Source of the DNA: Clostridia bacterium | GTDB taxonomy: Bacteria > Bacillota > Clostridia > Oscillospirales > Acutalibacteraceae | NCBI GenBank assembly: GCA_017410325.1 | Contig: JAFQRA010000001.1 | Location: 32,277-96,276, forward strand | Direction of reading: 5' to 3' | DNA length: 64,000 nucleotides | Part shown: positions 25,358 to 64,000 of the stretch, one piece after another | How positions within the stretch are numbered: the first letter of the stretch is position 1 | Layout of the letters: each line of letters starts with the position of its first letter | Program-made: the position numbers and the translations under genes | Notes under the pieces: generated by a model | Databases searched by the model: none | Seen by the model: the letters and a program-made list of their open reading frames with translations, nothing else | What the model was told of the DNA's origin: nothing

Positions 25358-25384
25358 TATAACATATTAAAGGGGTGTATTATA

Positions 25385-27243: not shown

Positions 27244-27360
27244 TATCATTATTATTCTTTTATTATGTATATTTACAAATTCGACTTATCTCTTGCAATG
27301 AGGTTGAATAACTTCACTAAGTAACAGAAGGTTTTATTTACAAAGTTATTATTTAAACAG

Positions 27361-27679: not shown

Positions 27680-27694
27680 TAGTTTCTTAAAAAC

Positions 27695-27744
27695 AAAACC
27701 AGGTGCAACGGGATTTAATTTCTGCTGCACCTGGTTTCTTTTTG
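27695..27744 (+). terminator. terminator hairpin after the tnpV remnant
   Basis: AAACCAGGTGCA (27696-27707) pairs with TGCACCTGGTTT (27726-27737) over an 18-base loop and is followed by CTTTTTG. The 12-bp perfect stem suggests a transposon terminus or a terminator. Confidence 0.7.
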
Positions 27745-27957
27745 CTTATGCTTTTCTGCGAGATATCAGAGACGAAATCCCTTATTGAAAATTTGTATGT
27801 ACAAATCCATTGCTCGCTAAAACGGACATCAAAATCTCAAATTACGAGGTCTCAAGCCTCTTAAGCTTGACAAAATTAAAGAAAATATACATTGATACTT
27901 GACTTATTTGGGATAATGTGCTACATTATATATTGAAATTCACACTTGGAGGTTACT

Positions 27958-28668: not shown

Positions 28669-28694
28669 AAATTAGTATAGAAAGACTGTTTATT

Positions 28695-29852
28695 ATGAAA
28701 AGATTTAATGGAGCGAGAATTAAAAAGGCCAGATTGTATAATGGTTTAACAGTAGAAGAATTAGCTCGAGAAATAGGTGTGAGTAAACAGGCAGTATCAC
28801 AATATGAAAACAATCAAATTGAGTTACCGTTAGAAAAAGTATTTTTGCTATCCAGCATTCTGAATTTTCCGATTGATTATTTTTCTCAATCGGATTTTTC
28901 CGATGTTAAGGTTGGAACCACCTACTTTAGAGCACTTTTGAGAACAAACTCAAAGATTAGAACCCAACAAGAGACAAGACTGGAACATATTGGTATTATT
29001 TATTCGTTTCTTAATCAATATGTAGATTTTCCTGTTCTTGACTTACCGACATTTGAAACAGAATTGTCTCCCAAACAAGCTGCAATAGAATTGCGAAATT
29101 ATTGGGGATTAGGTAATAATCCAATAAACAATATAACTCAATTATTAGAGTCAAAAGGTATTTTAATTACAGCATTAGAGACTTCTACAGATGACATAGA
29201 TGCTTTTGGTCAATGTGAATGTATTAATGGTAAAGAAGTTTATTTTATTGCAGTATCCAAAGAAACACATTCAGCTGCCAGATTCCAATTTGATGTTGCT
29301 CATGAACTTGGGCATATTATATTGCACGAATGGAGTGAAAATATTGAACTATTAGATAGAGAACAATTTAAAGCGAGAGAAAAAGAAGCAAACGAGTTTG
29401 CCAGTGAATTTTTGCTTCCAAGTGCCTCCTATATTAATGATGTTTTAAATATTTCTAATAGAATCGAAAGTTATCTCCCGTTAAAACGCAAATGGAAAGT
29501 GTCTATCGGTGCAATGGCGTACAAAAACAGAGAACTTGGTATTATTAGCCAACGTCAATATCAATACTTATTAAGTACGATGAACAAAAAGAACATAAGA
29601 ACAAATGAACCTCTTGACGATATTTTACCGTGTCCGCTTCCCTCAATGTTTGATGATGCGGTTTCTCTGCTATTGGAAGAGAAAATATTTACTCCTGCAT
29701 CTTTTATTGATGCTTTATCAGATTATGGTTTATCTATGAATTATTCAGAAATAGAAAGTCTTCTTAACCTTCCAAAAGATAAATTAAAGCCTAACTATGC
29801 TGGTTCACAAGCAAAAGCCATTAGATTAAAAAATACAAATATAATAGATTAA
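28695..29852 (+). CDS. XRE-family HTH and ImmA/IrrE-type metallopeptidase
   Basis: 385 aa. Residues ~1-65 are a Cro/C1-type HTH (LTVEELAREIGVSKQAVSQY). A zinc peptidase domain of the ImmA/IrrE family follows, with HELGH at residues 203-207 inside FDVAHELGHIILHEW and the third ligand in EANEFASEFLLP. These fusions sense damage or host factors and cleave or bind repressors that keep mobile elements silent; ImmA of ICEBs1 is the best-known relative. Here it could control island excision or be part of a toxin-antitoxin-like pair with the upstream gene. Starts with ATG 28695. Confidence 0.92.
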   Translation: MKRFNGARIKKARLYNGLTVEELAREIGVSKQAVSQYENNQIELPLEKVFLLSSILNFPIDYFSQSDFSDVKVGTTYFRALLRTNSKIRTQQETRLEHIGIIYSFLNQYVDFPVLDLPTFETELSPKQAAIELRNYWGLGNNPINNITQLLESKGILITALETSTDDIDAFGQCECINGKEVYFIAVSKETHSAARFQFDVAHELGHIILHEWSENIELLDREQFKAREKEANEFASEFLLPSASYINDVLNISNRIESYLPLKRKWKVSIGAMAYKNRELGIISQRQYQYLLSTMNKKNIRTNEPLDDILPCPLPSMFDDAVSLLLEEKIFTPASFIDALSDYGLSMNYSEIESLLNLPKDKLKPNYAGSQAKAIRLKNTNIID

Positions 29853-29880
29853 TATTATCTCAACGAAAGGAACAACCGCT

Positions 29881-30594
29881 ATGCTCAATATTGCTGTGTG
29901 CGATGATGAACTGATTGAAATTGAATATCTGACATCGCTCACACAGGAGTGGGCAAAGGCGACCAAAACCACCGTAAACATTTCGGGTTTTACGAGTGCG
30001 GAGGCGTTTCTTTTCAAGTATGAGGAAGATAAAAATTTTGATATTCTTCTGCTTGATATTCAGATGAAAGCGATGGACGGCATTGCGCTTGCCGAGAAAA
30101 TCCGTGAGAACAACAGCAGCGTGCAGATTGTTTTCATAACCGGTTTTTCTGATTACATTTCCCGTGGGTATGATGTTTCGGCACTTCACTATCTGATTAA
30201 ACCCGTTGAGAAAGAAAAGCTTTCTGAGGTTCTTTCAAGGGCTTGCGATAATCTGAAGAAAGAAGAGAAATTCATTCTGCTTTCGATTGATAATGAAAGC
30301 TGTAAAATCAATCTGAAAGATATAATTTATGTTGAAGCCTTCGGACATTCAAGCTGTGTTGTTTGTGAAAACGGTGAGCATAATGTTAAGCTCCCGATTT
30401 CGGATATTTCTAAAATGCTTGATAAGAGTTTCATTCAATGCCACCGTTCATACATAGCAAATATTCAGCATATTTCAAGAATTACCAAAACAGATGTAGT
30501 CTTTGACAACGGCAAAAGCGTTCCTGTTTCAAGGCGAATGTATAATGATGTCAATATGGCATTCATCAATTTTTACAGAGGTATCAGTCAATGA
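29881..30594 (+). CDS. LytTR-family response regulator
   Basis: 237 aa. The receiver domain has acidic DDE near the start and phospho-acceptor D59 in LLLDIQMKAMDG, followed by the conserved K in LIKPVEKEK. The C-terminal LytTR DNA-binding domain has YVEAFGHSSCVV and FIQCHRSYIANI. The gene overlaps the GHKL kinase start by 4 bases. Such AgrA-type regulators bind tandem direct repeats about 21 bases apart; a matching site lies at the end of the kinase gene before the ABC exporters. Confidence 0.95.
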   Translation: MLNIAVCDDELIEIEYLTSLTQEWAKATKTTVNISGFTSAEAFLFKYEEDKNFDILLLDIQMKAMDGIALAEKIRENNSSVQIVFITGFSDYISRGYDVSALHYLIKPVEKEKLSEVLSRACDNLKKEEKFILLSIDNESCKINLKDIIYVEAFGHSSCVVCENGEHNVKLPISDISKMLDKSFIQCHRSYIANIQHISRITKTDVVFDNGKSVPVSRRMYNDVNMAFINFYRGISQ

Positions 30595-31334
30595 ATTATT
30601 GGATTATTGCCGCAGCAGTTGCAGTTGTTTTACTTGCAATAGTTCTGGCGGTTATTTTCACAAGGAGATATATCCGCAATTTTACAGACAAGCGTATTGC
30701 CGAATATCAGAATGACCTCATCACAAAGCATTGCGAGGAAGTTCAGAACATTTATAAAACAATGCGTGGCTGGCGTCACGACTATAAAAATCACATTCAG
30801 GTTATGCGTGCATCCCTTGAAATGGGCAACCTTACCGAACTTGGCAACTATCTCGGTGAACTCTCGGTTGACCTGAACACTGTTGATACGGTTGTCAAAA
30901 CCGGCAACGTAATGGCGGATGCCATTCTCAACAGTAAGCTTGCACTCTGCAAAGCAAGAAATATTCCTTATGAGGTTACTGCAACCATTCCCGAAGAATG
31001 CAGCGTAAATGATGTTGAACTTTGTGTTATTATCGGCAATCTGCTTGACAACGCAATGGAAGCCTGCGAAAAGATCGAGGACAAAACAAAGAGATTTATC
31101 CGTGTTTATATCGGACTTTTTAAGGCTCAGCTTTATATAAACGTTACTAACTCAATGATTGGTACTCCTATTAAAAAAGGTAAGGCATACAAATCCTCAA
31201 AGGGTGAAAACCACGGCTTCGGACTTATGAGAGTTGACAGAATTGCCGATAAATACAACGGCTTTGTCAACCGTCAGTTTGAAGATGGGGTATTTGGTAC
31301 AGAGATAATGTTACCATTCGTGCAAACCAAATGA
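30591..31334 (+). CDS. GHKL-type sensor histidine kinase (AgrC-like, minimal sensor)
   Basis: 247 aa. One N-terminal membrane helix (IIAAAVAVVLLAIVLAVIF), then an atypical H-box WRHDYKNHIQVM with the likely phospho-acceptor H63, an N-box IIGNLLDNAMEAC and a G-box NHGFGL. It lacks the multi-helix peptide sensor of AgrC, so it must take its signal from a partner or from the adjacent ABC exporters. Probably phosphorylates the LytTR regulator encoded immediately upstream. Confidence 0.93.
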   Translation: MNYWIIAAAVAVVLLAIVLAVIFTRRYIRNFTDKRIAEYQNDLITKHCEEVQNIYKTMRGWRHDYKNHIQVMRASLEMGNLTELGNYLGELSVDLNTVDTVVKTGNVMADAILNSKLALCKARNIPYEVTATIPEECSVNDVELCVIIGNLLDNAMEACEKIEDKTKRFIRVYIGLFKAQLYINVTNSMIGTPIKKGKAYKSSKGENHGFGLMRVDRIADKYNGFVNRQFEDGVFGTEIMLPFVQTK

Positions 31335-31347
31335 CCGTTCGTGCAAA
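31313..31347 (+). promoter_or_regulatory. putative LytTR-binding direct repeat
   Basis: ACCATTCGTGCAAA (31313-31326) and ACCGTTCGTGCAAA (31334-31347) are near-identical direct repeats with a 21-base period, two helical turns, as expected for an AgrA/VirR-type dimer. A TACAAT -10 follows at 31375-31380 with no good -35, the arrangement of activator-dependent promoters. The site overlaps the 3' end of the kinase gene and would drive the two ABC exporter genes. Confidence 0.7.
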
Positions 31348-31372
31348 AGCAACCTTCATTGGTTGCTTTTTT
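31345..31372 (+). terminator. terminator between kinase gene and ABC exporters
   Basis: AAAAGCAACC (31345-31354) pairs with GGTTGCTTTT (31361-31370), continuing into a run of Ts. It would separate the regulator operon from the exporter operon and overlaps the -35 region of the predicted LytTR-activated promoter. Confidence 0.8.
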
Positions 31373-31402
31373 GGTACAATTCGGATGAATTGAGGTGATA
31401 AT

Positions 31403-33223
31403 ATGAGCAATAAACCCAAGAGAAAGAAACATTCATTTTTCAGCAATATGTTTTATATTTTCAAAACCATTACCAAATGGGATAAGTCTATTGTTCCGAT
31501 AAGTTTACTGCAGTCCCCTTTCATTATTCTGATGGAACTTATAGTAGCTTATTTTGTAACAGTATTGACTTGGTGCATTGAAAATGAAAAAGGTATTAGC
31601 TCGATAGTTCTGGCAGCACTCGGACTTGCAGCATTTTCTGTGCTTACCAGTTTTATTTCAAACAGATTAAATGAGAAAATACTTGTAAAAAAGAATGAAA
31701 CAAACAGACAGTTTGATTTGCTTTTAGGCGAAAAAATCATGGATATGGATTTTGAAATCGCTGAGGGTCCTATTGGCAGAGACAAGTACCAGAAAGCGAA
31801 AAACTCACTTGGCTCAGAAGGTGTTTACGGCTTTGTGACAATGTTTTCGACATTATTCACAAATATTATCGGCATATTTACCTTCGGTGCGATTACGGCT
31901 TCGCTGAACCCATGGCTTATACTCATTCTGACAGGAGCACAGCTATTGGGATTGCTTTCAACTCTTGTTGAAAACCACCTTATAAATAAAACAAAAGATC
32001 CGATAGCAGCTGTTGACAGAAAACTGAATTATATAACCAAAACCTCCCGTGATTTCGCAATTGCAAAAGACATCCGTCTTTTTCACTTAAGAGATTACCT
32101 GCGCCAGATGAGTGAATATTTTGTCGGTGAACGCAAATTCTGGACTAATAAAATGTACTTTTACTATTTTATTTCAGATACACTCAGACTGCTTCTGAAT
32201 GTCGGCATTGAAATCGGCATTTTTGCTTACATAGCCTATGAAGCGCTCAACGGTGAAATGTCAAAAACGGCATTGGTTCTCTATGCTGTTTCCGTTACGG
32301 ATTTCACTTCTTGGGTTGAATATATCGGCGAAACAGTCTCTAACGTAATTCCGTCAAATATGCTGATTAATGATTTACGTGAATTCCTTGACATTGAGAA
32401 TTCGATGGAAAACGCAAACGGTAAGTCTATGCCTGCCGATAAGCCGTATAAAATTGAAATCAAAGATCTTTCATTTACTTATCCCGAAACGGATAAAATC
32501 ATACTCAATAATATAAACCTTACGATAAATGCCGGTGAAAGGCTTGCGCTTGTCGGTGTAAACGGAGCAGGTAAAACAACGCTTGTTAAGCTGCTGAGTG
32601 GACTTTACAAACCGACTTCTGGCTCAATCAAAATAAACGGAACCGACATTTCAGCGATTAATAGAGATGAATACTACAAATCTGTTTCTGCTGTATTCCA
32701 AGAAGCAAGAATTATGCCCTGTTCCATTCTCGAAAATGTCTCAATGCTTCCCGCAGGAGAAAGTGATGCTGAAAGATTCGATTTCTGTATCCGTCAAGCA
32801 GGTTTATATGAAAAAATACAAAACCTGCCTGAAAAAGAAAATACTCTGCTTGTCAAGAACGTTAATGAAAATGCCGTTGAATTGTCCGGCGGCGAAATTC
32901 AGAGACTGCTTCTTGCAAGGGCTATTTACAAGGATGCACCGACGCTTATTCTTGACGAACCCACAGCAGCACTTGACCCGATAGCAGAAAATGAAATCTA
33001 TCTGAAATACAGCGAAATTTCAAAGAACAAAACTTCAATCTATATTTCCCACCGACTTTCATCCACTCGTTTCTGTGACAGAATCGTGCTGCTTGACGAT
33101 GCCTCAATCGCCGAAGAAGGCACACACGAAGAACTGATGGCACGCTCAGGCAAATATGCCGAGATGTTCAGAATTCAAAGCAAATATTATGAAAAGGGGG
33201 CAGAAGAAAATGAAGAAGCATAA
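31403..33223 (+). CDS. ABC exporter half-transporter 1 (TMD-NBD fusion)
   Basis: 606 aa. Six membrane helices fill the first ~310 residues; the nucleotide-binding domain has Walker A GVNGAGKTT (G385-), signature ELSGGEIQR, Walker B LILDEPTAALDP and H-loop YISHRLS. It is a type IV (MsbA-like) half-transporter and overlaps the next gene, a second half-transporter, by 14 bases, so the functional unit is probably a heterodimer. Next to an AgrA/AgrC-like pair, peptide export or self-immunity is the likeliest role; no precursor peptide or lanthipeptide synthase gene was found. GAGGTG precedes ATG 31403. Confidence 0.94.
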   Translation: MSNKPKRKKHSFFSNMFYIFKTITKWDKSIVPISLLQSPFIILMELIVAYFVTVLTWCIENEKGISSIVLAALGLAAFSVLTSFISNRLNEKILVKKNETNRQFDLLLGEKIMDMDFEIAEGPIGRDKYQKAKNSLGSEGVYGFVTMFSTLFTNIIGIFTFGAITASLNPWLILILTGAQLLGLLSTLVENHLINKTKDPIAAVDRKLNYITKTSRDFAIAKDIRLFHLRDYLRQMSEYFVGERKFWTNKMYFYYFISDTLRLLLNVGIEIGIFAYIAYEALNGEMSKTALVLYAVSVTDFTSWVEYIGETVSNVIPSNMLINDLREFLDIENSMENANGKSMPADKPYKIEIKDLSFTYPETDKIILNNINLTINAGERLALVGVNGAGKTTLVKLLSGLYKPTSGSIKINGTDISAINRDEYYKSVSAVFQEARIMPCSILENVSMLPAGESDAERFDFCIRQAGLYEKIQNLPEKENTLLVKNVNENAVELSGGEIQRLLLARAIYKDAPTLILDEPTAALDPIAENEIYLKYSEISKNKTSIYISHRLSSTRFCDRIVLLDDASIAEEGTHEELMARSGKYAEMFRIQSKYYEKGAEENEEA

Positions 33224-35075
33224 GCGTACTCTCAAAGAAGATTTACGGATGATAAAGAGAGCTCTTAAGCTTATTGAAAGCAATACTCCGCATTTTCTTC
33301 TGCATAACTTTCTCTATTCATTTTTTGCCACGGCTATTTTTGTTATCGCAAATTACATCACAGCCTCAATTGTTGATGAGCTTACAGGTAACAGAGATCC
33401 CCAAAAGATTGTTTTTCTTCTTTCAATGTATGCCGCTGAAGTAGTTCTTTATATTTTCAGAGATTATTCGTGGCGTAAAGTACGCACATTCCATATAATT
33501 TCAGAAAAATGGGAAGAGGTTTTGCTCAACGGCAAGAGCTTTTCGATGGACTACCCGAATATGGAAGATCCGCTGATAAGAGCCAAACGCCAATTGATAA
33601 CCGACAGCCGTGGTACCGGCGGACTCGGAAAACTTATGGTGAACTTGGTTTCGCTTTTTGAAGGCATCAGCAAACTCGTTATGTGTTCAATTATTTCAAT
33701 GGAGCTGTTTTTCAAGCATTCCGATAAGGTTCTGTCGGGCTTTGAAAAATTTATTGACACATCGGGATTTACAATAGCATTCTTCGTGTTTGTTGCCATT
33801 TGTGCTGTCGGTGAATATAAAGTCACATCAAAATTCAACCGTCTTTCTGTTGAAAAAATTAAAGGCAATTCAATGATTGAAAGACTTTTACACTACTACC
33901 TCGACGATTATATTGATGACAGTAAGGCATGCAAAGACATTCACATCTTCAACCAGAAAAGGCTTATCCGTTTTTCATCTGATAAAGTTTACGATGAATG
34001 GATTAAAGGCTGCAAAGAACTCTTTTCTCTTCAAAGGAAAAGGAACAACAGATTCAATTTATTCTATGTTCTTACAACGGGTGCCACTTATCTTTTCGTT
34101 GCGCTCAAAACATATATAGGCGCATTTGGTCTTGGTGGCTTCATTAAATATCAGTTCTGCGTTGCACGTATTGTTGAAGCGGCAGAAATCTTTTCGAGTG
34201 CTGTTACAGATTTACGCACCAATAACGATTATCTCGAAATATTCTTTGACTATCTGGACACACCGACCGAAATGCACTACGGCACTATCCCCACCGAAAA
34301 GCGAATGGATAACAAGTATGACATTGAGTTTCACAATGTCAGCTTCAGATATCCGAACACAGAAAACTACGCTATCAAAAACCTTAATCTTAAATTTAAG
34401 GTCGGTGACCGAATTGCGGTTGTCGGTATGAACGGCAGCGGTAAAACAACGATGATAAAATTACTTTGCCGACTTTACGACCCGACAGAGGGATACATCA
34501 CCCTCAACGGAATTGATATTCAGAAATACGATTATGAGGACTATCTGGATTTGTTCTCGGTTGTCTTTCAGGATTTCAGACTGTTCTCGTTTTCCGTTGG
34601 CGAAAATGTTTCGGCAGAAGTTGATTATGACGAAGAAAAAGTATGGTCGTCACTCGAAAAAGCAGGTATGCTTGAACGAGTAAAAGCTATGCCGAAGGAA
34701 CTCAAAACTCCCGTTTATAAAGATTTTGAAGAAGACGGTGTTGAGATATCCGGTGGTGAAGCACAGAAGCTCGCAATTGCAAGAGCACTCTATAAAGATG
34801 CTGCATTTGTCATTCTTGATGAACCTACCGCATCGCTCGACCCCATAGCCGAACACGAAATCTATTCCCGTTTCAATGATATGGTTAAGGATAAAACTGC
34901 GGTTTATATCTCCCACCGTCTGTCATCCTGCCGTTTCTGCGACAGAATCCTCGTGTTCGATAACGGTCAACTGATTCAGGATGGCTCACACGAAAACCTC
35001 CTCGAAAACCCCGACGGCAAATACAGCGAACTCTGGAACGCACAGGCGCAGTATTACGCAGAGAATAAAGTATAA
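33210..35075 (+). CDS. ABC exporter half-transporter 2 (TMD-NBD fusion)
   Basis: 621 aa from ATG 33210, chosen because GGGGG lies 9 bases upstream; the frame is open to 33156 inside the previous gene. Membrane helices in the first ~320 residues, then Walker A GMNGSGKTT (G406-), signature EISGGEAQK, Walker B VILDEPTASLDP, H-loop YISHRLS. Both half-transporters keep canonical catalytic motifs, so both sites of the heterodimer should hydrolyse ATP. Last gene of the exporter operon, followed by a strong terminator. Confidence 0.94.
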   Translation: MKKHKRTLKEDLRMIKRALKLIESNTPHFLLHNFLYSFFATAIFVIANYITASIVDELTGNRDPQKIVFLLSMYAAEVVLYIFRDYSWRKVRTFHIISEKWEEVLLNGKSFSMDYPNMEDPLIRAKRQLITDSRGTGGLGKLMVNLVSLFEGISKLVMCSIISMELFFKHSDKVLSGFEKFIDTSGFTIAFFVFVAICAVGEYKVTSKFNRLSVEKIKGNSMIERLLHYYLDDYIDDSKACKDIHIFNQKRLIRFSSDKVYDEWIKGCKELFSLQRKRNNRFNLFYVLTTGATYLFVALKTYIGAFGLGGFIKYQFCVARIVEAAEIFSSAVTDLRTNNDYLEIFFDYLDTPTEMHYGTIPTEKRMDNKYDIEFHNVSFRYPNTENYAIKNLNLKFKVGDRIAVVGMNGSGKTTMIKLLCRLYDPTEGYITLNGIDIQKYDYEDYLDLFSVVFQDFRLFSFSVGENVSAEVDYDEEKVWSSLEKAGMLERVKAMPKELKTPVYKDFEEDGVEISGGEAQKLAIARALYKDAAFVILDEPTASLDPIAEHEIYSRFNDMVKDKTAVYISHRLSSCRFCDRILVFDNGQLIQDGSHENLLENPDGKYSELWNAQAQYYAENKV

Positions 35076-54021: not shown

Positions 54022-55767
54022 ATGAATAAGCTCAGACGTTTTGCAAAAAAAGAAGACGGAGCGGTAATGGTCATTGCCGCCTTCGGTCTTGTTGCCTTCC
54101 TTTCAATCGTTTCTTTGGTCACCGATATGGGGCTCAAATACCACCAGAAAAGTATGCTCCAGAGCGCAATGGATGCCGCGGCTTTAGCGGCGGTACGCTA
54201 TATGCCCGACGAGCAGACCGCAAAGCAGGTTGCCCTCGAATACGTTGAAAAAAACGGCTTTTCAACCGAAAGCGTCGTTGTTGAATTTCCCAGCAGCGAA
54301 ATTGTCCGTGTGTCCGACTCGCGTGAGGGCAAAACGATTTTCGCCAGCCTTTTCAAGGTCGATTCCGTTCAGATTAAAGCCAAAGCGGCGGCTAAATACG
54401 TCAACAAAAATATGGCGATAGACTTTGAATACCTGATGTTCCACGGCGACAATACGCAGTTTACTCTCGGCGGCCACTATAATCTTGGCGGCAGTATTTT
54501 CGGCAACGGCAACGTCCACGCCGACGGCGGTGCAGGCAGCGCAGTTACGGGTACTGTTTTCTCGGCAAATAATGCTACCCACAACCAGTACAGCGTAACT
54601 GTCGGCAGGCTTGAAAGCAATGTCAATTCGCAGAAAATGCCCGATTTTGACGAAACTATAATGTCCGTCGTGCCTGTGGTTGAGGAATCAATGTTCAGCA
54701 AAACCTACGAGCCGATAAGCAAATCGGCGTTTTACCTTAACCGCTATTCCGCAGGCACAACAATCAACTCGTCTCTTGCAATCAACGGCAACACCTACTG
54801 CGCAGGCACGCTTTCAACGGGCTATAACTCCGATTTGCTCATTATCTACGGCGACCTCTATGTCGAGGGCGATTTTAATCCCCAATGTCCCGTTTATGTA
54901 AAGGGTAACGCCTATATCGGCGGTAACCTCACAACCACATGGAGCCGTGCTTTTAACGTCGGCGGCAACCTTTACGTTGCCGGCAACACTACTTTCCAGG
55001 GCGATGCCGCAATCAACGGCGAGTATTTCTACACGGGCGGCAACCTCAACAGAGGCTCAAACTATAAGCTCACCTGCGAGTGTGAAACCTTTGTCGGCGG
55101 TAACGTAACTCTCAACGGTGTAACGGATTTCAACGGCTCGGTCTATTGCAGAGGCGTGTTTGATAAGCAGGGCAGTGTCGCAATGAGTACAAGAGGCAAT
55201 ATGTATATCTACGATACGCTCAAACTGCAAAGCGGCGGCACAACCGTAAACGGCAATATCTACGTCTGGGGCAAAAACGCAACCGACGAATTACCTGCAG
55301 CCGATATCGCAGGCCCGTTTACCCTCGTTGGCGATTTGTATAATAGAAAGCATACTCTCTCGCTCTCGGGCCAGGGTGAATACAACATAAAGGGCATAGT
55401 ATACAGCGGCGGCAAGCTGACAACCAATCAAGGCTCAAGCGGTATTACCTTGAGCGGCTGTATGGTGGCCGAGGATGATATTCTCATCGGCGGCAGCACC
55501 CACACCTACAACGAAGCAGGTGCAACCCTTTCTATTTATTCGCGTAAAGGCGATATAACCCTCTACTCCCAGCAGGGCGGCTTTGAGCTTTGGGGCATAG
55601 TCTACGCACCCAAGGGTAACGTAGCCCTCGCCTCAGGCGATTTCAATATCCACGGCTCAATCATCGGCAATACAATAACAAGTAACCCCGGCGGACTTAC
55701 AATGGGCTATAACGACCGCGAACTCCCGTATTCCAAATCCGTCAAAACCGCAGTACTTATCGAGTGA
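54022..55767 (+). CDS. TadG-like pilus protein with repetitive beta domain
   Basis: 581 aa. The N-terminus is TadG-like: leader with KKEDGAVMV, a hydrophobic helix (IAAFGLVAFLSIVSLVTDMG) and KSMLQSAMDAAALAAVRYM. From ~150 to the end it is a long Gly/Asn-rich beta repeat (VYVKGNAYIGGNL, NVGGNLYVAGNTTFQGDAA, CETFVGGNVTLNGVTDFNG), like bactofilin or polymer-forming domains. It is probably surface-exposed and processed like a pseudopilin. GGAGG precedes ATG 54022. Last gene of the operon. Confidence 0.88.
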   Translation: MNKLRRFAKKEDGAVMVIAAFGLVAFLSIVSLVTDMGLKYHQKSMLQSAMDAAALAAVRYMPDEQTAKQVALEYVEKNGFSTESVVVEFPSSEIVRVSDSREGKTIFASLFKVDSVQIKAKAAAKYVNKNMAIDFEYLMFHGDNTQFTLGGHYNLGGSIFGNGNVHADGGAGSAVTGTVFSANNATHNQYSVTVGRLESNVNSQKMPDFDETIMSVVPVVEESMFSKTYEPISKSAFYLNRYSAGTTINSSLAINGNTYCAGTLSTGYNSDLLIIYGDLYVEGDFNPQCPVYVKGNAYIGGNLTTTWSRAFNVGGNLYVAGNTTFQGDAAINGEYFYTGGNLNRGSNYKLTCECETFVGGNVTLNGVTDFNGSVYCRGVFDKQGSVAMSTRGNMYIYDTLKLQSGGTTVNGNIYVWGKNATDELPAADIAGPFTLVGDLYNRKHTLSLSGQGEYNIKGIVYSGGKLTTNQGSSGITLSGCMVAEDDILIGGSTHTYNEAGATLSIYSRKGDITLYSQQGGFELWGIVYAPKGNVALASGDFNIHGSIIGNTITSNPGGLTMGYNDRELPYSKSVKTAVLIE

Positions 55768-55842
55768 TAAAAGCAGAATAAAATACATAATATAATGTAT
55801 ATAATATAAAAACACATATTAAAACAGTGGATTTTTGGGAAT

Positions 55843-55890
55843 CGCAAGCAGCCTGTCGAAGTGGATGACAGGCTGCTTGCGGTTGTTATT
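55843..55890 (+). terminator. terminator of the Tad operon
   Basis: CGCAAGCAGCCTGTC pairs perfectly with GACAGGCTGCTTGCG (55843-55881) and is followed by GTTGTTATTCTTATATTTT. Confidence 0.85.
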
Positions 55891-56075: not shown

Positions 56076-56870
56076 TTAAATGTTTTGTTTCCACTCGGCG
56101 CTCTCTTGGATTCGTACAGTTTTACGTTTATAGTTATCATCGTGTTTACTGCCTCTGGAAACAAGGAAACATTTATAATTATTTCCGAATGACTTGTTTA
56201 ATATGGATTTTATTACATTGTCATTAAGAAACTCACATGAAAAAATGTCGATTAAAGCTGTTTGGGTTTTGACATTATAATGAACAGCGATATGACTTTG
56301 AGCAACTATTAAAACGCCGGATATATATTCTGGATTTTCAATTTGGTCATAAATGACATATGGACGAATAATAGGCAACATATTAATTTTTGTTGCTATA
56401 TTGTCTAACCAACGATAGATCCATTCAAAAGACATTTCACAATCGTTAACTTCAATCATATAGTGCGGTCCAAAGTCCTTATTAACATCAATTTCAGGTT
56501 CTTTTGAATTGTAAATCATTCTTCTGTCAATAATTTTGCTGTTAAGTTTGTTAGCAAACAACCGTTCTTTAAAATAGTTTTCAGCAGTTGCCTGTGAAAA
56601 AAATTCGTCAGTAAGAACATCTACAAAATAGCAGGCTCTATATGGGAAAGTATGAATAGTGACATGTCCGCCTTTACATATAGTAAAAGCACTTATTCCG
56701 CCGTCTTCTGAATTGTTACAATAATAATAAGGAACAAGAAAAGGAGGCATAACAGGAAGAATTCCTAAATCATGTGTAACACAGTTTAATAATTCATTAA
56801 TCGACATAAGATTGTTTGAACTTTCTTCTACGGAGCCATAAGCGTCCATCATAAAATGTAAATGTGGCAT
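56076..56870 (-). CDS. tandem AdoMet decarboxylase (SpeD)-like protein, cleavage site lost
   Basis: 264 aa built from two SpeD-like halves. Each starts with a short strand and His (PHLHFMMDAYG at 2; GPHYMIEVNDC at 134) and each contains the strand normally reading ESHISIHTWPE: half 1 has KGGHVTIHTFPYRACYFVDV (66-85), half 2 has AQSHIAVHYNV (190-200). In active SpeD the chain breaks between Glu and Ser to make the pyruvoyl group; half 1 has Gly-Gly, half 2 Gln-Ser. So it is probably a non-cleaving binding protein for AdoMet or a related nucleotide, not a polyamine enzyme. Last gene of the operon, 4 bases after the previous stop. The SpeD assignment is by motif, not by search. Confidence 0.75.
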   Translation of the reverse strand: MPHLHFMMDAYGSVEESSNNLMSINELLNCVTHDLGILPVMPPFLVPYYYCNNSEDGGISAFTICKGGHVTIHTFPYRACYFVDVLTDEFFSQATAENYFKERLFANKLNSKIIDRRMIYNSKEPEIDVNKDFGPHYMIEVNDCEMSFEWIYRWLDNIATKINMLPIIRPYVIYDQIENPEYISGVLIVAQSHIAVHYNVKTQTALIDIFSCEFLNDNVIKSILNKSFGNNYKCFLVSRGSKHDDNYKRKTVRIQESAEWKQNI

Positions 56871-56874
56871 AACA

Positions 56875-59199
56875 TTATCCTTCTAAAAATATTTTATCAA
56901 AATCGCTACATTTAAATACAAACGGATCAATCCACCAAGTATTGTTTGATCTTACGATATTTGGCAGACAGTAATAACGCATATTTATGTCATAAGCAAA
57001 CTCGCTTAACATATTTATTTCCATATTACATCCGTCAATTTCTTTGGCGTCAAAAATAAGGGTGAATGTCGATGTGTCATATCCGTCTTTACTGTCACTA
57101 TGATTGTTGTAGCTTGCAACCATAGGAGAAATTGCATTAAAGGAATTTTGTCTTGAGTCATTTTCTTCAAGAATTCCAGACAATAAGAATCGAAAGATTT
57201 TTATTGTGGTATTAAACCAGTAATCGATATTTTCTTCATTTATGGCTTTTGCGGTGTTAATATCAATAATTTCATTGAACAAAGACATATCCATAATTGA
57301 TTTTTTTCCAAGAACCGCATAAAGCAATTTTGATTCAGTGCTTCTTGTTTGTGCCACAGAAAGTTGAGTTTGGCAACAACTGTTACAGAGATCAACGAAT
57401 TTTGAAATAAGCTCTGTTGCAGAAGTGATGTTTTTTAATGATTTTGCACATGCTTCTGCGGAAGCTTGAAAAGCAGCCTCTGCATTTAATTGAAACTTTT
57501 TTATTTTAGAATCGGAAAGAATGGTGGTTCGAGATTCATTATCAAATTTGATTTTTTCTTCACCGTATGCAAATATACCGCTATAAAAACAAATCAATCT
57601 TTTAAATGTATCGCTAAGAAAAGATTCAAGGTATTCTTTTATCAGTTTGGCATCTTTTGTTTTCTTGGCATTTTCAAGTATTATTATATATTGCTGAATA
57701 GTATTTGTATGAAAGCAATCGTTTGCAAGGTGAGAGTCTATGTTTTCATCTGAAGATGTTAATGCTGTAAGTACCAGATGGGTTTTGGCTTTTGCGATGA
57801 GTTCACGATTATATTTTTCTATTTCAACATTTCCATGATTTTCGATGTAATGGTTTCCCAACAGAGAAATTGCTTTTTCTGTAAACTCTTCTCCATTGGT
57901 TATCTCAAGAAACAGTTTGTTATTGCTTAACAATTTCCCGAATCGTCTTCTGAGATTTCGAACAATTTCATCATCTCCGTCATCGTCTAAGGCATAGAAA
58001 ACTTCTCTTAACACCATTGAGGGTCCGGCTTCTATAAGTAATATAACTACTATGCTGTCCCAATTTTTTGTTTCCTTCGTGTAAGATTCAAAAGCATGTG
58101 GGAATTTTTCTGAAAAAACATACCAAAGCCTTTCACCACCACGTTTAAACTGCTTTTTTCCTATTGCATCGGCGATTGCCAAAGAGAGGTTTTTCATATA
58201 TTTATAGTTAATATTAAAAATCTGATCCATTGATGTTGTCGGTGAAACAGAATTATTAACATCTGATATTGAAAAACCTAAATAAGTATACATTGTTTCA
58301 TGGTCAGTTGCAATATTATAAGGCTTTGCAATGGTTCCGGGGTCGAATTTTGAAATAGAATTTTTTCCGGAAACTCCAACCATTGAACAGGTGACATATC
58401 TGTCGAAGCGGGGGGTTTCGTATTTAAGCGAATTTGAATCAATAGATGTAAGTATACAGTAGTGGCTTCCACCCATCTTAATTTTTTTTAGAATATCAAA
58501 GGTATCTATAATTCCAATACGAGGATTATCTTTCGAATCTGTTCGGAAGATGCTACCGTTATAGTTGTTAATCACAAAAGTATACCACTGAGATAATTCG
58601 TCAAATTTTAATGATGTTGTCTTTAAAAAAGGGAAAAAATCAATAAAAATCCTCAAATATTCGGATGCAATATCGAGGGTAAAATCTGTTTCTTCTTTTT
58701 CTCCTAGAAGCCCTTTGGTCGTTATGCGTGAGCTTTCTGCATTTTCGTTTATAAATGAAAAATATTCATTTAAACCGACGTTCTTATCATCCCAATAATC
58801 GCCCATCGAAACACAGTTAGGAAAATACTTTCCTAAACAAGCGTCTCCTCCCTGCAAAAAATCGTAATAAATATCAGCAATGACAAATTGCATCAATTCA
58901 GTAGATAAGGGATACTTTTTATATATACTTTGCATAGTTCGGATAACACGCATAGCATTTGAATTTCCGTTTTTTATACAGTTACCAATTTGGGTCTCTA
59001 TCTTGTTTTTAGTATTGTTGCTAAGATGAAGATAGCATGAAAACGCATATATAAAAGCAAGTGTAATTGTGTTTTGAAATACTCGGACAAAATCCTGTGC
59101 TGAAGTTAAAAAGGTATCCTCATCACATCCACCCGAAAGATAAAATCTCATTTCAGGGTCAGGAATCATTTGTTCAAAATCTTTTGAAGTAATAATCAT
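56875..59199 (-). CDS. 774-aa uncharacterised protein of the TIR operon
   Basis: 774 aa, no signal peptide or membrane helix. The first ~200 residues are helical (DFVRVFQNTITLAFIYAFSC); a central region about 210-340 looks alpha/beta with GGSHYCILTSIDSNSL and RYVTCSMVGVSGKN; the rest is mostly helical, with an acidic loop DDDGDDE near 440 and a Trp-rich end (NNTWWIDPFVF). No nuclease, protease or NTPase motif found. Position between the KGGAGR ATPase and the SpeD-like protein suggests a sensor or scaffold role. AAGGAT stands 8 bases before ATG 59199. AT-rich. Confidence 0.85.
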   Translation of the reverse strand: MIITSKDFEQMIPDPEMRFYLSGGCDEDTFLTSAQDFVRVFQNTITLAFIYAFSCYLHLSNNTKNKIETQIGNCIKNGNSNAMRVIRTMQSIYKKYPLSTELMQFVIADIYYDFLQGGDACLGKYFPNCVSMGDYWDDKNVGLNEYFSFINENAESSRITTKGLLGEKEETDFTLDIASEYLRIFIDFFPFLKTTSLKFDELSQWYTFVINNYNGSIFRTDSKDNPRIGIIDTFDILKKIKMGGSHYCILTSIDSNSLKYETPRFDRYVTCSMVGVSGKNSISKFDPGTIAKPYNIATDHETMYTYLGFSISDVNNSVSPTTSMDQIFNINYKYMKNLSLAIADAIGKKQFKRGGERLWYVFSEKFPHAFESYTKETKNWDSIVVILLIEAGPSMVLREVFYALDDDGDDEIVRNLRRRFGKLLSNNKLFLEITNGEEFTEKAISLLGNHYIENHGNVEIEKYNRELIAKAKTHLVLTALTSSDENIDSHLANDCFHTNTIQQYIIILENAKKTKDAKLIKEYLESFLSDTFKRLICFYSGIFAYGEEKIKFDNESRTTILSDSKIKKFQLNAEAAFQASAEACAKSLKNITSATELISKFVDLCNSCCQTQLSVAQTRSTESKLLYAVLGKKSIMDMSLFNEIIDINTAKAINEENIDYWFNTTIKIFRFLLSGILEENDSRQNSFNAISPMVASYNNHSDSKDGYDTSTFTLIFDAKEIDGCNMEINMLSEFAYDINMRYYCLPNIVRSNNTWWIDPFVFKCSDFDKIFLEG

Positions 59200-59238
59200 T
59201 CTGTCAGATCCTTGTATGTATTTTATGTTTCAACAATA

Positions 59239-60177
59239 TTAGTTGCCTGCAACGATCATTCTTGCAATCTCCTTGTATATATCCAAGGCTGTTCGTTCGA
59301 TTTCGCTCAAGTTTTCAGCATTTTTGAGAACCCCTTCTTGCCACATGAAACGATCAATTTTGGGGACACCAAACTTATTGCCTTCAAGAAGATCAAGAAT
59401 ATAATTATTGTTTTTTCTGCTCAAATTATCCTTAAAATCTTCAAGAATTCGGTCTTTGGCATAAGAAGGGTAGTTGTTTATAATTCCGTTTTTACCTTTT
59501 ATAGAAAGTTCGTCTACGGGAACGATGTTGGGAATGATAATTATATTTTTGGAGTTAGCTTTAGTGTCATATATGTCGAAGAAATGTTTGGTTCCTTCTC
59601 TGAATTGCTCTGTCGGTCGAAGACAGCACATAATATGGGAGGCGCAGTTGTTAGACCAAATTGCAGTGAGTTGTGAACCAACTGCAGAGTCAAACAAAAC
59701 TCCGCATGCAGTAGATTTACACATTCTTTTAAATGCTGAAATATGACTGCTCAAAGGTGCATCATAGTTTGAATCTCCCTTGATTGTTTCGCCGGGATTA
59801 GCAGGAAGACATAAGATTTCTTTTGGCCTGAAACCAAAAAACTCGCCAACGGGGTAGAGATTTTGAAACATTTCATGATCAAGTGCGGAGTCAATTTCAT
59901 CCTCATCTTCATCAACTATTGGCATATTTGAAAATCTGGGGTGAAACCAACTTTGTACACACTCTTTCTTGATTCTATGGTCATTGTGCAGATCAAACAG
60001 AAAGGTAAGTCCGCAACTGTCTATGTCCATATCAACCAATACCAAGGGCCTTTTTTCTGTAGCGTTAAGCATTTCAGCAAGATATGGAACTACATTTATT
60101 GCCAAAGTGCTTCTGCCGGCACCGCCCTTGTAAGAAAAACATGAAATAAATTTACATGTGTTTTGAACGTTTCCCAT
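59239..60177 (-). CDS. ParA/MinD-like ATPase with KGGAGR variant P-loop
   Basis: 312 aa. The P-loop at residues 17-24 reads KGGAGRST: the deviant Lys (K17) of ParA/MinD is kept, but the usual GKT Lys is replaced by Arg (R22). This matches the KGGVGR-motif variant ATPases known from prokaryotic conflict-type operons. Walker B is LVLVDMDID (45-53). The C-terminal part has helices expected for MinD-type proteins. AAAGGAG lies about 10 bases before ATG 60177, and only 6 bases separate it from the preceding gene. Whether it hydrolyses ATP is open; the substitution could turn it into a nucleotide-gated scaffold. Confidence 0.88.
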   Translation of the reverse strand: MGNVQNTCKFISCFSYKGGAGRSTLAINVVPYLAEMLNATEKRPLVLVDMDIDSCGLTFLFDLHNDHRIKKECVQSWFHPRFSNMPIVDEDEDEIDSALDHEMFQNLYPVGEFFGFRPKEILCLPANPGETIKGDSNYDAPLSSHISAFKRMCKSTACGVLFDSAVGSQLTAIWSNNCASHIMCCLRPTEQFREGTKHFFDIYDTKANSKNIIIIPNIVPVDELSIKGKNGIINNYPSYAKDRILEDFKDNLSRKNNNYILDLLEGNKFGVPKIDRFMWQEGVLKNAENLSEIERTALDIYKEIARMIVAGN

Positions 60178-60183
60178 TAAATT

Positions 60184-62613
60184 TCATTCTCCTTTGTTTA
60201 TCTTTTCTTCGAGCAAGCCATCTAATGCTCTTTGTCTGTTGTTGGCCAGATTGGTTTCGCCTCGGTTGGTCACAAAATAACTCTTATGATTGCCTTTTTC
60301 AGCAATTCCTTTGAGATAGTATCTCAAAGCCATTTTCATATCTGTATCCGTATGTTGTGTAACGTATTTCTCGATACTGTTAAGAGCTTTTGTTCGTTCT
60401 TCTCTGTTGTCGTGAACACTGTAGAGAGTTTCTCCCATTTGTTCAGCGGTAAGAGCCAGTAAAATATCGCGCATACCTTTCTCAAACGTAACGGAATCGG
60501 ATTTAGTGGATTTCCATTCTTCAAGTTCGATATTCTCCACACCATTAGTTTTGTTTTCAATAGTTTCTTTTACCGAGGATATAATTCTTGTTGCTTCAGC
60601 ACTCATCTGCTCAGCTAAAATACCGATAATACCTTCTCTTAAAACATTCATAATAAAACCGGACAAAGCCGAACGAAGAGGATCGCTTTCATACGCATCA
60701 ATTTTCAACTGCATATTAATGATTTGTTTTTTTAGCTCTTCTCTTTCTTGTTCAAGGGTTTTAAAGTCTGCCAGATCTTTGTCAACGGCCTTGCCTTTTT
60801 CTAACAGAGATGAATGATAGTTTTTTTCGATCTCAGATTTTTTCTCTTTATTTGCGTTGGCATTGGCAAGGAACTGTTCCTCATATTCACTGTAATATGA
60901 ATAGAAACTGGAAAGTGCTGAAATGAAGTAATAGCAACTGGATGTGGAATATCCACCATTCTCCCATATCCAAAGATATTCATTGGTAGCGGAATCCCAT
61001 GAACGATATTTTAAGATCTGCTCAAGATACAACAACATATCGTACTGGGGATATCTGATAACGAAATCACTAATTGTAGTTTTGGTTCTTGCTATAAGAG
61101 GCATAAGAGAAAATACTCTGATGTGAGATTTTCTCATATCTCTGACGATACCTGCGTGATTATCATTAATCTTCTCGTCAAAGCTAAGCGTGTATTCGTT
61201 TATCTTGTAATCTTTATCATCTTCTTTTAATCGCATAAAGTACTGATAACAGTTTTCGTATGACAAACGAAGTGTTGCACGAAGGTTATCATAATTTTTA
61301 AGAGCCTCATCGTATTCTTTTGAACCATTTATTGTGAAGTAATTAATCTTGTCCTCATAATCTTCATCAATACCGGCATTGATGATGGTATTGATGACAA
61401 ATATGCTGTTAAACAGGGCATCAGAAGAAATGCTGCAATTAATCGCTTCTTCTGAAATAATAGATGAAAGATCGAAAGAAAAGAACTCGCCGATAAGGTT
61501 ATCTTTAGTGAGATCCCACATTCTGTTGGCACTGTTTTTACACTTTTCTTCAAGAATTCTGTAAGGGGAGTCATAATCATAAGTTTTCTTACCGTTATTA
61601 AGAATAAAGAACATTTCTTTTTCACGAAGAATTTTACTGCTTCCTTGATTAATTTTGTTGCAGAATTCTGAACATTCGGACTCAACATACGCATATTTAT
61701 TATAAATCTCTATGATAAGTTCTATTTCTTGCTCCGTGAAACCATTAAGATTAGAATACAGTGATTTGTTTGCATCAGAGGTATTTGTGTTTTCAAACAG
61801 AATTTTTTCAATTAAATCTTTGTTTTTTTGATATTTTGATGATTTTAAAATACCAATTGTATCTAACTGTTCTCTGATCTCGCCTTTAATTAATTCTACA
61901 TCATCATTACGAACAACATTTTCAAAAGTTATAAGCATATCGATAAGAATTTCGCTTACAGCAAAAGTAAAATAAAGAGAAGGTTCTTCGCAGTTTTTGG
62001 TGAAATGCCAACCGCAATTGAATTTTGCAGAGTCAGGGACTTCAATATAACTGTCATTTATATACTTAACACAAAATCTGTATAAATCAAAAAGCTTCTT
62101 TTCTCGATCGTCATTTATTTTTAATAAATATTTTCCTCCGATATGGAGTCTGACAATACCGAGAATAGTAGCAATTATCCAAGTTGCACTATCGATATAT
62201 GTGTTATTGTCAAAAAATGTACTATCAGGAAGATAGGGCGACATATCTATTTTGTATCTGCTCAAGTTATTATCAACGTGATTGAGCAAATTGTCAATCA
62301 TCGTATCAACCCATTCCTTGATTTCGGATTCGGGCAGATTTATATTAAAATCATTGAATAAGTTGAGCAGGCTACAGTAACCCTGAAGCATAGGTAAAAT
62401 TCCGCTTTCCTGAATGTCGTCCGAAAACACAAAGCGGTTCTTGTCTTCTTCATATTTGTTTTTAAGAGTGTTATATATTTTTAAACCGATATTTTTTTTG
62501 TTTGTATATCTATAGAAACAGTTAACTTTTTCTTCGATAACTTCCTGAAGTTCAAAACTTAAGTCTTGCAATTCGGAATGCTTTAAGCCATATGCGTTGT
62601 TTTTTTGTGCCAT
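60184..62613 (-). CDS. large uncharacterised protein with C-terminal coiled coil
   Basis: 809 aa from ATG 62613, which has AAGGAGG 8 bases upstream; a TTG at 62634 is rejected because it overlaps that site. Mostly helical, no membrane span in the N-terminal part; a strongly charged coiled coil lies at about 610-670 (EKKSEIEKNYHSSLLEKGKA; LEQEREELKKQIINMQLKID), followed by a hydrophobic helix near 680-700 (LSGFIMNVLREGIIGILAEQ) and a polar C-terminus. No known enzymatic motif. It starts 13 bases after the TIR gene stop. Possibly the sensor or oligomerising platform of the system. Confidence 0.85.
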   Translation of the reverse strand: MAQKNNAYGLKHSELQDLSFELQEVIEEKVNCFYRYTNKKNIGLKIYNTLKNKYEEDKNRFVFSDDIQESGILPMLQGYCSLLNLFNDFNINLPESEIKEWVDTMIDNLLNHVDNNLSRYKIDMSPYLPDSTFFDNNTYIDSATWIIATILGIVRLHIGGKYLLKINDDREKKLFDLYRFCVKYINDSYIEVPDSAKFNCGWHFTKNCEEPSLYFTFAVSEILIDMLITFENVVRNDDVELIKGEIREQLDTIGILKSSKYQKNKDLIEKILFENTNTSDANKSLYSNLNGFTEQEIELIIEIYNKYAYVESECSEFCNKINQGSSKILREKEMFFILNNGKKTYDYDSPYRILEEKCKNSANRMWDLTKDNLIGEFFSFDLSSIISEEAINCSISSDALFNSIFVINTIINAGIDEDYEDKINYFTINGSKEYDEALKNYDNLRATLRLSYENCYQYFMRLKEDDKDYKINEYTLSFDEKINDNHAGIVRDMRKSHIRVFSLMPLIARTKTTISDFVIRYPQYDMLLYLEQILKYRSWDSATNEYLWIWENGGYSTSSCYYFISALSSFYSYYSEYEEQFLANANANKEKKSEIEKNYHSSLLEKGKAVDKDLADFKTLEQEREELKKQIINMQLKIDAYESDPLRSALSGFIMNVLREGIIGILAEQMSAEATRIISSVKETIENKTNGVENIELEEWKSTKSDSVTFEKGMRDILLALTAEQMGETLYSVHDNREERTKALNSIEKYVTQHTDTDMKMALRYYLKGIAEKGNHKSYFVTNRGETNLANNRQRALDGLLEEKINKGE

Positions 62614-62626
62614 ATTATTGTCCTCC

Positions 62627-63724
62627 TTAATCAATGTTTGAAATAGGAATCTCTATAACCGGTCTTATTCCTTTTTTAGAAAGAATAACAAAGCCTTTTG
62701 AATAACAGTAATCGCCTATAATAGTTTGTTTCCAATTTGATGTAAGACCGTCTATATCTATCCACCAATGTTTTGCTTCTAAAGACACCGGCTTTAATGA
62801 ATCGTCTCTATGGATAGATTGGCAACGTTCAATATCGTACTGTGTCAAATATCTTGCGGTAATTGGTCCGTTTTTCTTTTCTTCTTCTAAAAAACTTATA
62901 TCAATAAATGTTTTGGTGAGGAATTTGAGTCCGCTTTCAAAAGTATCATTGCAGATGATATCAATGCAAAGCAAAACTGCAGTTGTATTATCTTTTACAT
63001 ACAAGAGTTTCCATTTAAGTTCTTTTGTGAAATATCTTTTTTGGTTCAACTGAATAAGGTTTTGAGTTATTCCGAATCTCTGGTCAGCAAAATCAGGTGC
63101 ATATTCAGGACCTATATATTCTCCGGATATATATCTTCCAAGTATTATCTCCTCCGGATTAGTTGCTGTGCTACTATTTTTTTGCATATGGTCTATGAAC
63201 GTTTCTTCATTGTCTATAAGACCATATATAACAGCAATATCTTCTATTATCCTTTTTACAGTGGTTTCCGAATCGGTTCTTTGAATACACAATATATCAT
63301 CATTAAAAAGGGCACGCTGAACATTGTGTTGAAAATCAGAATACTCTTTAGTATCTAAAATATTGTTAGCGTCATTGAACATTTTAAAGGTTTGTTTACC
63401 TTCTAAATTTACAGACCAATGTTTAAAGTTGCCTTTTTTGAGTCTATCCAGCACATATTCTTGTTCTTTTTGAACTGACGGACTAACAAAAGCATCGGTG
63501 GAATTATAAAATAGAACGCCCACACAGTTGGGATGATTAATTTTCTCTTTTACTATATCTATCCACTTTTCTCCAAGGTGTTTTTTCATATTTATATCAT
63601 ACCAAAGTCTAACACCTTTATCAAGCAGTAACTTCATATCTTCTTCAATTGCATTTGCATTAAGATGGTTATAGCTTACAAAAATAAAATTACCTTTTAA
63701 AATCTTCTTTTCATCCAAAGCCAT
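62627..63724 (-). CDS. TIR-domain protein with C-terminal DUF6273-like domain
   Basis: 365 aa. Residues ~10-140 have the TIR pattern: FIFVSYNHLN (13-22), GVRLWYD (37-43), GEKW (51-54), VGVLFYNSTD (68-77) and SPSVQKEQEYVL (81-92) with candidate catalytic Glu at 87 or 89. TIR domains in bacterial immunity cleave NAD+ or make ADP-ribose signals. The C-terminal ~160 residues resemble DUF6273: KWKLLYVKDNTTAVLLCIDI, KHWWIDIDG (318-326) and KGIRPVIEI (351-359). GAGGTGAT lies 8 bases before ATG 63724. First gene of the operon. The NADase activity is inference. Confidence 0.82.
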   Translation of the reverse strand: MALDEKKILKGNFIFVSYNHLNANAIEEDMKLLLDKGVRLWYDINMKKHLGEKWIDIVKEKINHPNCVGVLFYNSTDAFVSPSVQKEQEYVLDRLKKGNFKHWSVNLEGKQTFKMFNDANNILDTKEYSDFQHNVQRALFNDDILCIQRTDSETTVKRIIEDIAVIYGLIDNEETFIDHMQKNSSTATNPEEIILGRYISGEYIGPEYAPDFADQRFGITQNLIQLNQKRYFTKELKWKLLYVKDNTTAVLLCIDIICNDTFESGLKFLTKTFIDISFLEEEKKNGPITARYLTQYDIERCQSIHRDDSLKPVSLEAKHWWIDIDGLTSNWKQTIIGDYCYSKGFVILSKKGIRPVIEIPISNID

Positions 63725-63807
63725 ATAAAATTATCACCTCAAAATAATAATTCGAAAACACAAAATCTATGTAAATAGCATATCAAATATATTAAATATA
63801 TTAAATA

Positions 63808-63836
63808 ATCTTATCATAACAGTTAAATGTTGTCAA
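63808..63836 (-). promoter_or_regulatory. promoter of the TIR operon
   Basis: On the minus strand TTGACA (63836-63831) and TAAGAT (63813-63808) with a 17-base spacer, about 85 bases before the ATG. The leader (63725-63807) contains repeated ATATATTAAAT. The -35 directly abuts the tandem repeat array beginning at 63841. Confidence 0.75.
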
Positions 63837-63840
63837 TTAA

Positions 63841-64000
63841 TGTAAAAGAGTTTAATTATATTTTCATGTAAAAGAGTTTAATTATATTTTCTGTAAAAGA
63901 GTTTAATTATATTTTCTGTAAAAGAGTTTAATTATATTTTCTGTAAAAGAGTTTAATTATATTTTCTGTAAAAGAGTTTAATTATATTTTCTGTAAAAGA
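63841..64000. repeat. 25-bp tandem repeat array upstream of the TIR operon
   Basis: Units begin TGTAAAAGAGTTTAAT and end TATATTTTC; unit starts at 63841, 63867, 63892, 63917, 63942, 63967 and 63992, the last cut by the window edge. The first unit has one extra A; the rest are identical. There are no spacers, so it is not CRISPR. A 25-base period is not a multiple of three and no coding frame runs through. It sits just upstream of the TIR promoter, where it could bind a regulator cooperatively or vary in length. Confidence 0.92.

Follow-up and report, generated by a model that had tools for sequence, protein, structure and literature searches.

A recurrent TIR, KGGAGR ATPase and tandem SpeD gene module in uncultured Bacillota, a candidate conflict system combined with polyamine-type enzymes

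Five open reading frames (ORFs) lie on the minus strand within the last 8 kb of the stretch of DNA analysed here, a 64,000-nucleotide segment of contig JAFQRA010000001.1 from a Clostridia bacterium (assembly GCA_017410325.1), hereafter the window, whose end is also the end of the contig. They encode a TIR-domain protein, a coiled-coil protein (COIL), a ParA/MinD-like P-loop protein (the KGGAGR ATPase), a protein of a second orphan family (BIG) and a tandem SpeD protein with the fold of S-adenosylmethionine (AdoMet) decarboxylase (AdoMetDC). The features of the region are as follows.

62627..63724, minus strand: TIR-domain protein, 365 amino acids, with a weak DUF6273-like C-terminal part
60184..62613, minus strand: COIL, orphan coiled-coil family, 809 amino acids from an ATG start
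62634, minus strand: alternative TTG start of COIL, which would give 816 amino acids
59239..60177, minus strand: ParA/MinD-like P-loop protein with an SYKGGAGR motif (KGGAGR ATPase), 312 amino acids
56875..59199, minus strand: BIG, orphan family, 774 amino acids
56076..56870, minus strand: tandem SpeD/AdoMetDC-fold protein, 264 amino acids
63725..63836, minus strand: sequence upstream of the operon that contains a promoter-like match, such matches being at chance level here
55840..55884, plus strand: terminator-like stem of 19 pairs, separating the operon from the gene that ends at 55767

An earlier note on this DNA had described five co-directional, tightly spaced genes with gaps of 4–39 bases, and the coordinates confirmed this, with gaps of 13, 6, 39 and 4 bases in the order TIR to SpeD. 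Its description of the block as AT-rich also held (guanine plus cytosine (GC) content 0.337, compared with 0.452 in the remaining window). The Tad operon that it places next to the block is a putative assignment.

A profile search over the contigs of 84,980 species genomes, seeded solely with four aligned ATPases, yielded 42 loci from 84 candidate stretches, and 40 of the 42 carried the system. The scan required one of two short peptide patterns, and relatives with neither pattern escape it. The two other loci (L050 and L051) encoded a distant KGGAGR ATPase adjoined by none of the four other components and were excluded from the system counts. With the window added, the set comprised 41 loci; L029, L040 and L044 are the contigs of L007, L008 and L009, the names under which their neighbourhoods were tabulated, and near-duplicates are present (L018/L019/L020 and L045/L046). 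COIL was found in all 41 loci and BIG in 40, the exception being L012, whose contig stops in the ATPase gene. A TIR gene was adjacent in 39 of the 41, the exceptions being L015, which begins inside COIL, and L036, which has no upstream TIR gene and encodes downstream a 990-amino-acid protein whose TIR_2 score of 20.3 bits does not reach the cut-off of 28. SpeD was encoded in 31 of the 41 loci; in eight its slot was occupied by a GNAT gene or domain, and two (L012 and L016) end before the slot. Neighbouring genes overlapped or were separated by at most 40 bases, except for a single 223-base gap and the site of an inserted deiminase gene in eight loci. Because the same order was found in 40 loci recovered with the ATPase alone, which is beyond chance, the five genes almost certainly constitute one conserved module, and the possibility raised in the earlier note that their homologues never co-occur elsewhere is not borne out. 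At one of these loci (L016, 3886–4773) the ATPase is split into two ORFs, representing a broken gene or an assembly error.

Three subtypes were distinguished. Subtype A has the order TIR-COIL-ATPase-BIG-SpeD and numbers 22 loci, the window among them; every gene of the five was seen in 21, the exception being L015. Subtype B (seven loci: L008, L009, L037, L042, L045, L046 and L048) lacks SpeD and has a BIG of 958–966 amino acids; a GNAT domain was detected in all four aligned BIG members of this subtype and in the C-terminus of L009, and was deduced for L008 and L046 from the last 220 residues, which are 73.5% identical to L009 and 99.5% identical to L045, respectively. At L032, GNAT is a separate gene of 210 amino acids in the SpeD slot. 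Subtype C (eight loci) encodes a TIR protein of about 600 amino acids, an agmatine deiminase, COIL, the ATPase, a short BIG of 230–270 amino acids and SpeD, and L036 is intermediate, with the deiminase plus a full-length BIG. The deiminase gene was observed in all nine of the subtype C loci and L036; that of L039 scored 297.8 bits against PF04371 (cut-off 25) and 318.7 bits against TIGR03380, below the equivalog cut-off of 381.8. Since the enzymes differ by subtype (SpeD, GNAT, or SpeD with agmatine deiminase), polyamine-type enzymes are swapped between subtypes. In a midpoint-rooted tree of 40 ATPase sequences the clades coincided with the subtypes (C with L036, 100/100; B with L032, 99/95; A, 98/96), and protein distances among the five components correlated across the 21 complete A loci (r 0.81–0.96, each at the permutation floor of 0.001), values to which shared descent of the hosts could contribute. 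L012 (A clade) and L034 (subtype C) come from one and the same metagenome-assembled genome, RGIG4287. At L039 (12447–16864), SpeD is followed directly by two large proteins, the first of which matches RyR below threshold.

Judged by their titles, the carrier genomes are of uncultured bacteria, and all 40 titled loci are from Bacillota (Clostridia, Bacilli, Christensenellaceae and others); 16 of the 40 titles mention an organ of the gut, from roe deer, goat, sheep or yak. The earlier note had asked whether the same order recurs in defence islands of unrelated genomes; the order did recur, the loci recovered being in Bacillota rather than in unrelated phyla. Distribution is patchy: counting the window's own genome each time, the ATPase was carried by a single genome among 11 from the genus, by 4 among 295 from the order and by 1 in a sample of 398 from the phylum, and BIG by a single genome among 150 from the family. 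The gene next to the operon (54022–55767) was present in 7 of the 11 genomes of the genus; in four congeners the flanks of its homologue continue with other genes, with no system component within 15 kb.

The TIR protein of the window matched TIR_2 (PF13676) at 28.9 bits (cut-off 28), and the family was matched at E≤0.1 in all 29 members of an alignment covering subtypes A and B and L032, window included. Residue E87 (DNA 63464–63466), in an S-x-x-V-x-x-E stretch, was invariant in all 29 and is presumably the catalytic glutamate of TIR domains. The TIR profile also matched solved TIR chains, including the nicotinamide adenine dinucleotide (NAD+) hydrolase AbTIR (E 9.9e-6), in a match that covers the first part of the profile and stops short of E87. 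The TIR-DUF6273-like fusion proposed earlier thus stood in its TIR part, while DUF6273 (PF19789) gave no match in the window protein and weak ones, at E≤0.1 and with a best E of 0.0011, in 7 of the 29 sequences aligned.

In the ATPase, K17, G18, G19, G21, R22, D49, D51 and D163 were invariant in all 39 aligned sequences, window included. The window protein matched the AAA_KGGVGR model (NF047398) at 50.1 bits, under the cut-off of 90; comparison with sequences of solved structures gave no significant relative. At E≤0.1, no Pfam family was matched by more than 2 of the 35 COIL members, and no PDB sequence was matched by COIL. For BIG, GNAT families in four members aside, no Pfam family was matched by more than one of the 35 members at the same threshold, and the best PDB sequence match was not significant (E 0.66). 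Comparison of the two families with each other found no relatedness, and on sequence evidence COIL and BIG are two protein families without recognised relatives. The highest 19-residue hydropathy mean among the window proteins was 1.78, a borderline value in BIG.

The tandem SpeD matched AdoMet_dc (PF02675) at 76.8 bits (cut-off 25), with matches in both halves, and TIGR03330, which describes bona fide AdoMetDC, at 56.8 bits, under the equivalog cut-off of 75.65. Alignment to the Thermotoga maritima enzyme (PDB 1tlu) placed Ser192, His197 and Cys212 of the second half at S63, H68 and C83, residues that are essential for processing and catalysis there, according to PMC10407285. This trio was kept in all 31 SpeDs of the system. 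The first half is degenerate and does not retain the S63/H68/C83 equivalents: the cleavage-site Ser was present in 10 of the 31 and absent in 21, including the window, and by eye no row has a Cys at the aligned place. The earlier description of a dead tandem SpeD therefore suits the first domain and was rejected for the second, which its residues predict, with good confidence, to be catalytically competent. The residue preceding the second-half Ser is Gln in 22 of the 31 (A loci) and Glu in nine (subtype C and L036). The second half has no Pro where T. maritima AdoMetDC reads HTWP, a proline that we infer to be the one referred to in PMC10407285. Among the 21 A loci SpeD was the best conserved of the five proteins, with a mean identity of 55% compared with 29–46% for the others.

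Polyamine and arginine enzyme families were searched for in 28 carrier genomes, drafts in which absences are soft. AdoMet_dc was found in 24, and the 21 SpeD-bearing genomes had exactly two matches each, one per half of a single ORF. Spermidine synthase was strongly matched (213.5 bits) in one genome, G410, of subtype B, in which speD and speE are grouped with an OKR_DC_1 and an arginase-family gene, and arginase/agmatinase-family genes were present in three genomes (G410, G831 and G838). Given these two counts, ordinary spermidine synthesis is a poor explanation of SpeD, and we hold that role unlikely for the 21 SpeD-bearing genomes, the sole strong spermidine synthase being in a subtype B genome. 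Agmatine deiminase (PF04371) was found in 6 of the 28, all of them subtype C or L036 genomes, as a single copy on the operon's contig within a few kb of SpeD. Tandem SpeD genes with no system beside them were encountered in four cases, L052 and L053 in subtype B genomes and L058 and L059 in a class search of 391 genomes. Those of L052 and L053 adjoin agmatinase-like genes (189.1 and 161.6 bits, the latter below the cut-off of 174.3), and that of L058 (3582–6905) lies in a cluster of class-1a speD, speE and agmatinase. All four have the trio in the second half and a first half that is degenerate (GGH), and the Gln before the second-half Ser also occurs in L052 and L053. The L058 and L059 proteins are candidates for an arginine or ornithine decarboxylase of Clostridia-like genomes. 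Arginine and polyamine metabolism, which the earlier note had missed, is the most informative context of the module.

According to PMC10407285, an anomalous SpeD beside agmatinase or agmatine deiminase suggests an arginine decarboxylase. By this reasoning the agmatinase-like and agmatine deiminase neighbours point to arginine, converted to agmatine, as the substrate of SpeD, which would make it a SpeDA, a prediction from gene neighbourhood that we favour with some reserve. Several points weigh on the other side. The evidence for the call is of one kind, namely neighbourhood; weak spermidine-synthase-family matches above cut-off occurred in six further genomes (G836 44.1 bits, the others 22.0–29.9, with the window's own genome at 23.5 and a cut-off of 22.9); OKR_DC_1 matches in 21 of the 28 carriers indicate that another decarboxylase gene, of unassigned substrate, is often present; and the tandem SpeD of L059 (8231–10839) stands beside class-1a speD and speE only, with no adjoining agmatinase, which fits ornithine too. 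Gln, Thr, Phe and Tyr are given as residues diagnostic of the ornithine decarboxylase (ODC) SpeDC in PMC10407285, and that Gln could be the one before Ser192. An ornithine or AdoMet decarboxylase, with the system making putrescine or draining AdoMet, would agree with L059 and with the known SpeD-SpeDC fusions that have ODC activity in the C-terminal domain (PMC10407285); we consider it rather unlikely, since three of the four non-system copies lie by agmatinase-like genes, subtype C encodes agmatine deiminase, a separate class-1a AdoMetDC adjoins the L058 and L059 copies, and the HTWP proline is missing. Still more doubtful is a catalytically dead tandem SpeD serving as a ligand sensor for AdoMet or arginine: the losses in the first half, of the cleavage Ser in most rows and of Cys in every row, and the replacement of Glu by Gln before the second-half Ser in 22 of the 31 would suit a sensor, whereas the second-half trio is intact throughout and the polyamine-cluster copies outside the system share the degenerate first half and, in L052 and L053, the Gln.

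PADLOC models gave no system match for the five proteins, with only weak PDC-M28B matches for the ATPase, and no such system was among the matches listed from the open-access literature, in agreement with the earlier note, whose author knew of no described system with this set. The flanks were scanned with PADLOC for 105 proteins from 32 of the 41 loci (104 of 205 chosen, plus one extra TIR gene). Matches at E≤1e-10 were to mad3 (three), mad8 (two) and three PDC-S34 models (one each), counts that have no random control. Immediately upstream of the subtype B operon of L042 (3794–6611) lie an extra TIR gene of 724 amino acids and a NUDIX gene, and solo TIR genes flank the operon of L014 on both sides (150–935 and 8915–9547). 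A phage, plasmid or viral origin was considered and dropped, nothing having been recovered by the BIG and ATPase queries; the SpeD query matched four phage records weakly (best E 4e-10).

The single promoter assumed in the earlier note found no backing: a 10/12 match lies upstream (63836–63808), but promoter-like matches in the operon region were at chance level (39 found, shuffle mean 39.1). Terminator-like sites numbered four, with a mean of 3.6 in shuffles. Across 40 loci the GC content of the system averaged two points below that of its flank and was lower in 28. The window holds a second AT-rich block at about 25000–35000 (GC about 0.33–0.42), and a 25-bp tandem repeat of 6.4 copies with 99% matches (63841–64000) reaches the contig end.

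We propose that these genes form a patchily distributed TIR-centred conflict module, directed probably at phage or at stress, a reading to which we attach about as much belief as doubt. A TIR protein with an invariant Glu, together with an ATPase carried by one genome in 11 within the genus, makes a conflict role rather than a housekeeping one plausible as far as sequence can indicate. Three negative results tell the other way: no defence-island signal was found in the 105 flanking proteins, drawn from loci other than the window; plasmids and phages yielded no match to the BIG and ATPase queries; and viral contigs yielded none to the ATPase alignment. The candidate undescribed conflict system of the earlier note thus survives as a recurring module without a named match, in flanks that give no sign of a defence island. 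In the mechanism that we envisage, COIL and BIG would sense a trigger, the KGGAGR protein would act as a nucleotide switch and the TIR domain would then cleave NAD+. The tandem SpeD would self-cleave at Ser192 to give a pyruvoyl enzyme, which would most likely decarboxylate arginine to agmatine; agmatine would next be deiminated in subtype C, and subtype B would have an acetyltransferase instead. This small-molecule arm might drain arginine or make an amine for the system's own use. By analogy with type II Thoeris and its histidine, the TIR protein might even join SpeD-made agmatine to ADP-ribose (adenosine diphosphate ribose) from NAD+, producing a private alarm molecule that COIL or BIG and the KGGAGR switch would read, with the deiminase and acetyltransferase subtypes making different signals; the exchangeable enzyme slot and the NUDIX gene beside the extra TIR gene at L042 are consistent with this idea, which we regard as a long shot.

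The module might instead be a stress or metabolic regulon unconnected with immunity, in which the TIR and ATPase part would control how much arginine is decarboxylated, in the service of acid or polyamine homeostasis in the gut. Flanking genes that by eye resemble housekeeping genes in the loci displayed, the few PADLOC matches, the occurrence of SpeD relatives in polyamine clusters and the position of SpeD as the best conserved component are all in keeping with such a regulon. However, SpeD is missing from subtype B and L032, presence is patchy within the genus, and a strong spermidine synthase and agmatinase-family genes are rare among the carriers, and we judge the regulon unlikely, if worth keeping in mind. 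Should the conflict reading be correct, TIR and NAD+ chemistry would be linked to the metabolism of arginine and polyamines; a module of several genes, with three subtypes and two orphan families, would be added, and the biology of neofunctionalised SpeD decarboxylases would extend to a regulatory or defence setting. That the carriers are uncultured by title may explain the gap in the library of named systems.

The module has no match in the sources searched and looks undescribed, with a small-molecule chemistry of its own. The nucleoside triphosphate-dependent conflict systems of Kaur et al. 2020 are similar in having MinD/ParA-like domains, predicted inactive in that work, and the TIR domain is named eight times in the part of the article available (PMC7159879). 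A formylglycine-generating-type domain is among the effectors described there; 'polyamine' and 'AdoMet' do not occur in the same part, nor were COIL and BIG met in it. A Pfam scan of the five window proteins found no vWA or MoxR family, and membership of a vWA-MoxR system was not indicated. Thoeris also has a TIR domain, and its type II couples ADP-ribose to histidine, according to PMC12948488; the present system differs in having a ParA-like protein and a polyamine-type enzyme within a set of four to six genes, and by sequence no SIR2 or macrodomain family of the ThsA type, by which Thoeris would be recognised, was found among the five proteins. The AAA_KGGVGR family shares the P-loop variant ending in Arg, and the window ATPase falls short of its cut-off. 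As described in the accessible portion of PMC10407285, SpeD-SpeDC fusions resemble the window SpeD in joining two AdoMetDC domains in a single chain of some 270 amino acids with active-site Ser, His and Cys, and that of D. phosphitoxidans has a non-AdoMetDC activity in its C-terminal domain. The window SpeD differs from these fusions in that its first domain is degenerate and its second intact, the reverse of the degraded fusions in that account, and in being located inside a TIR operon.

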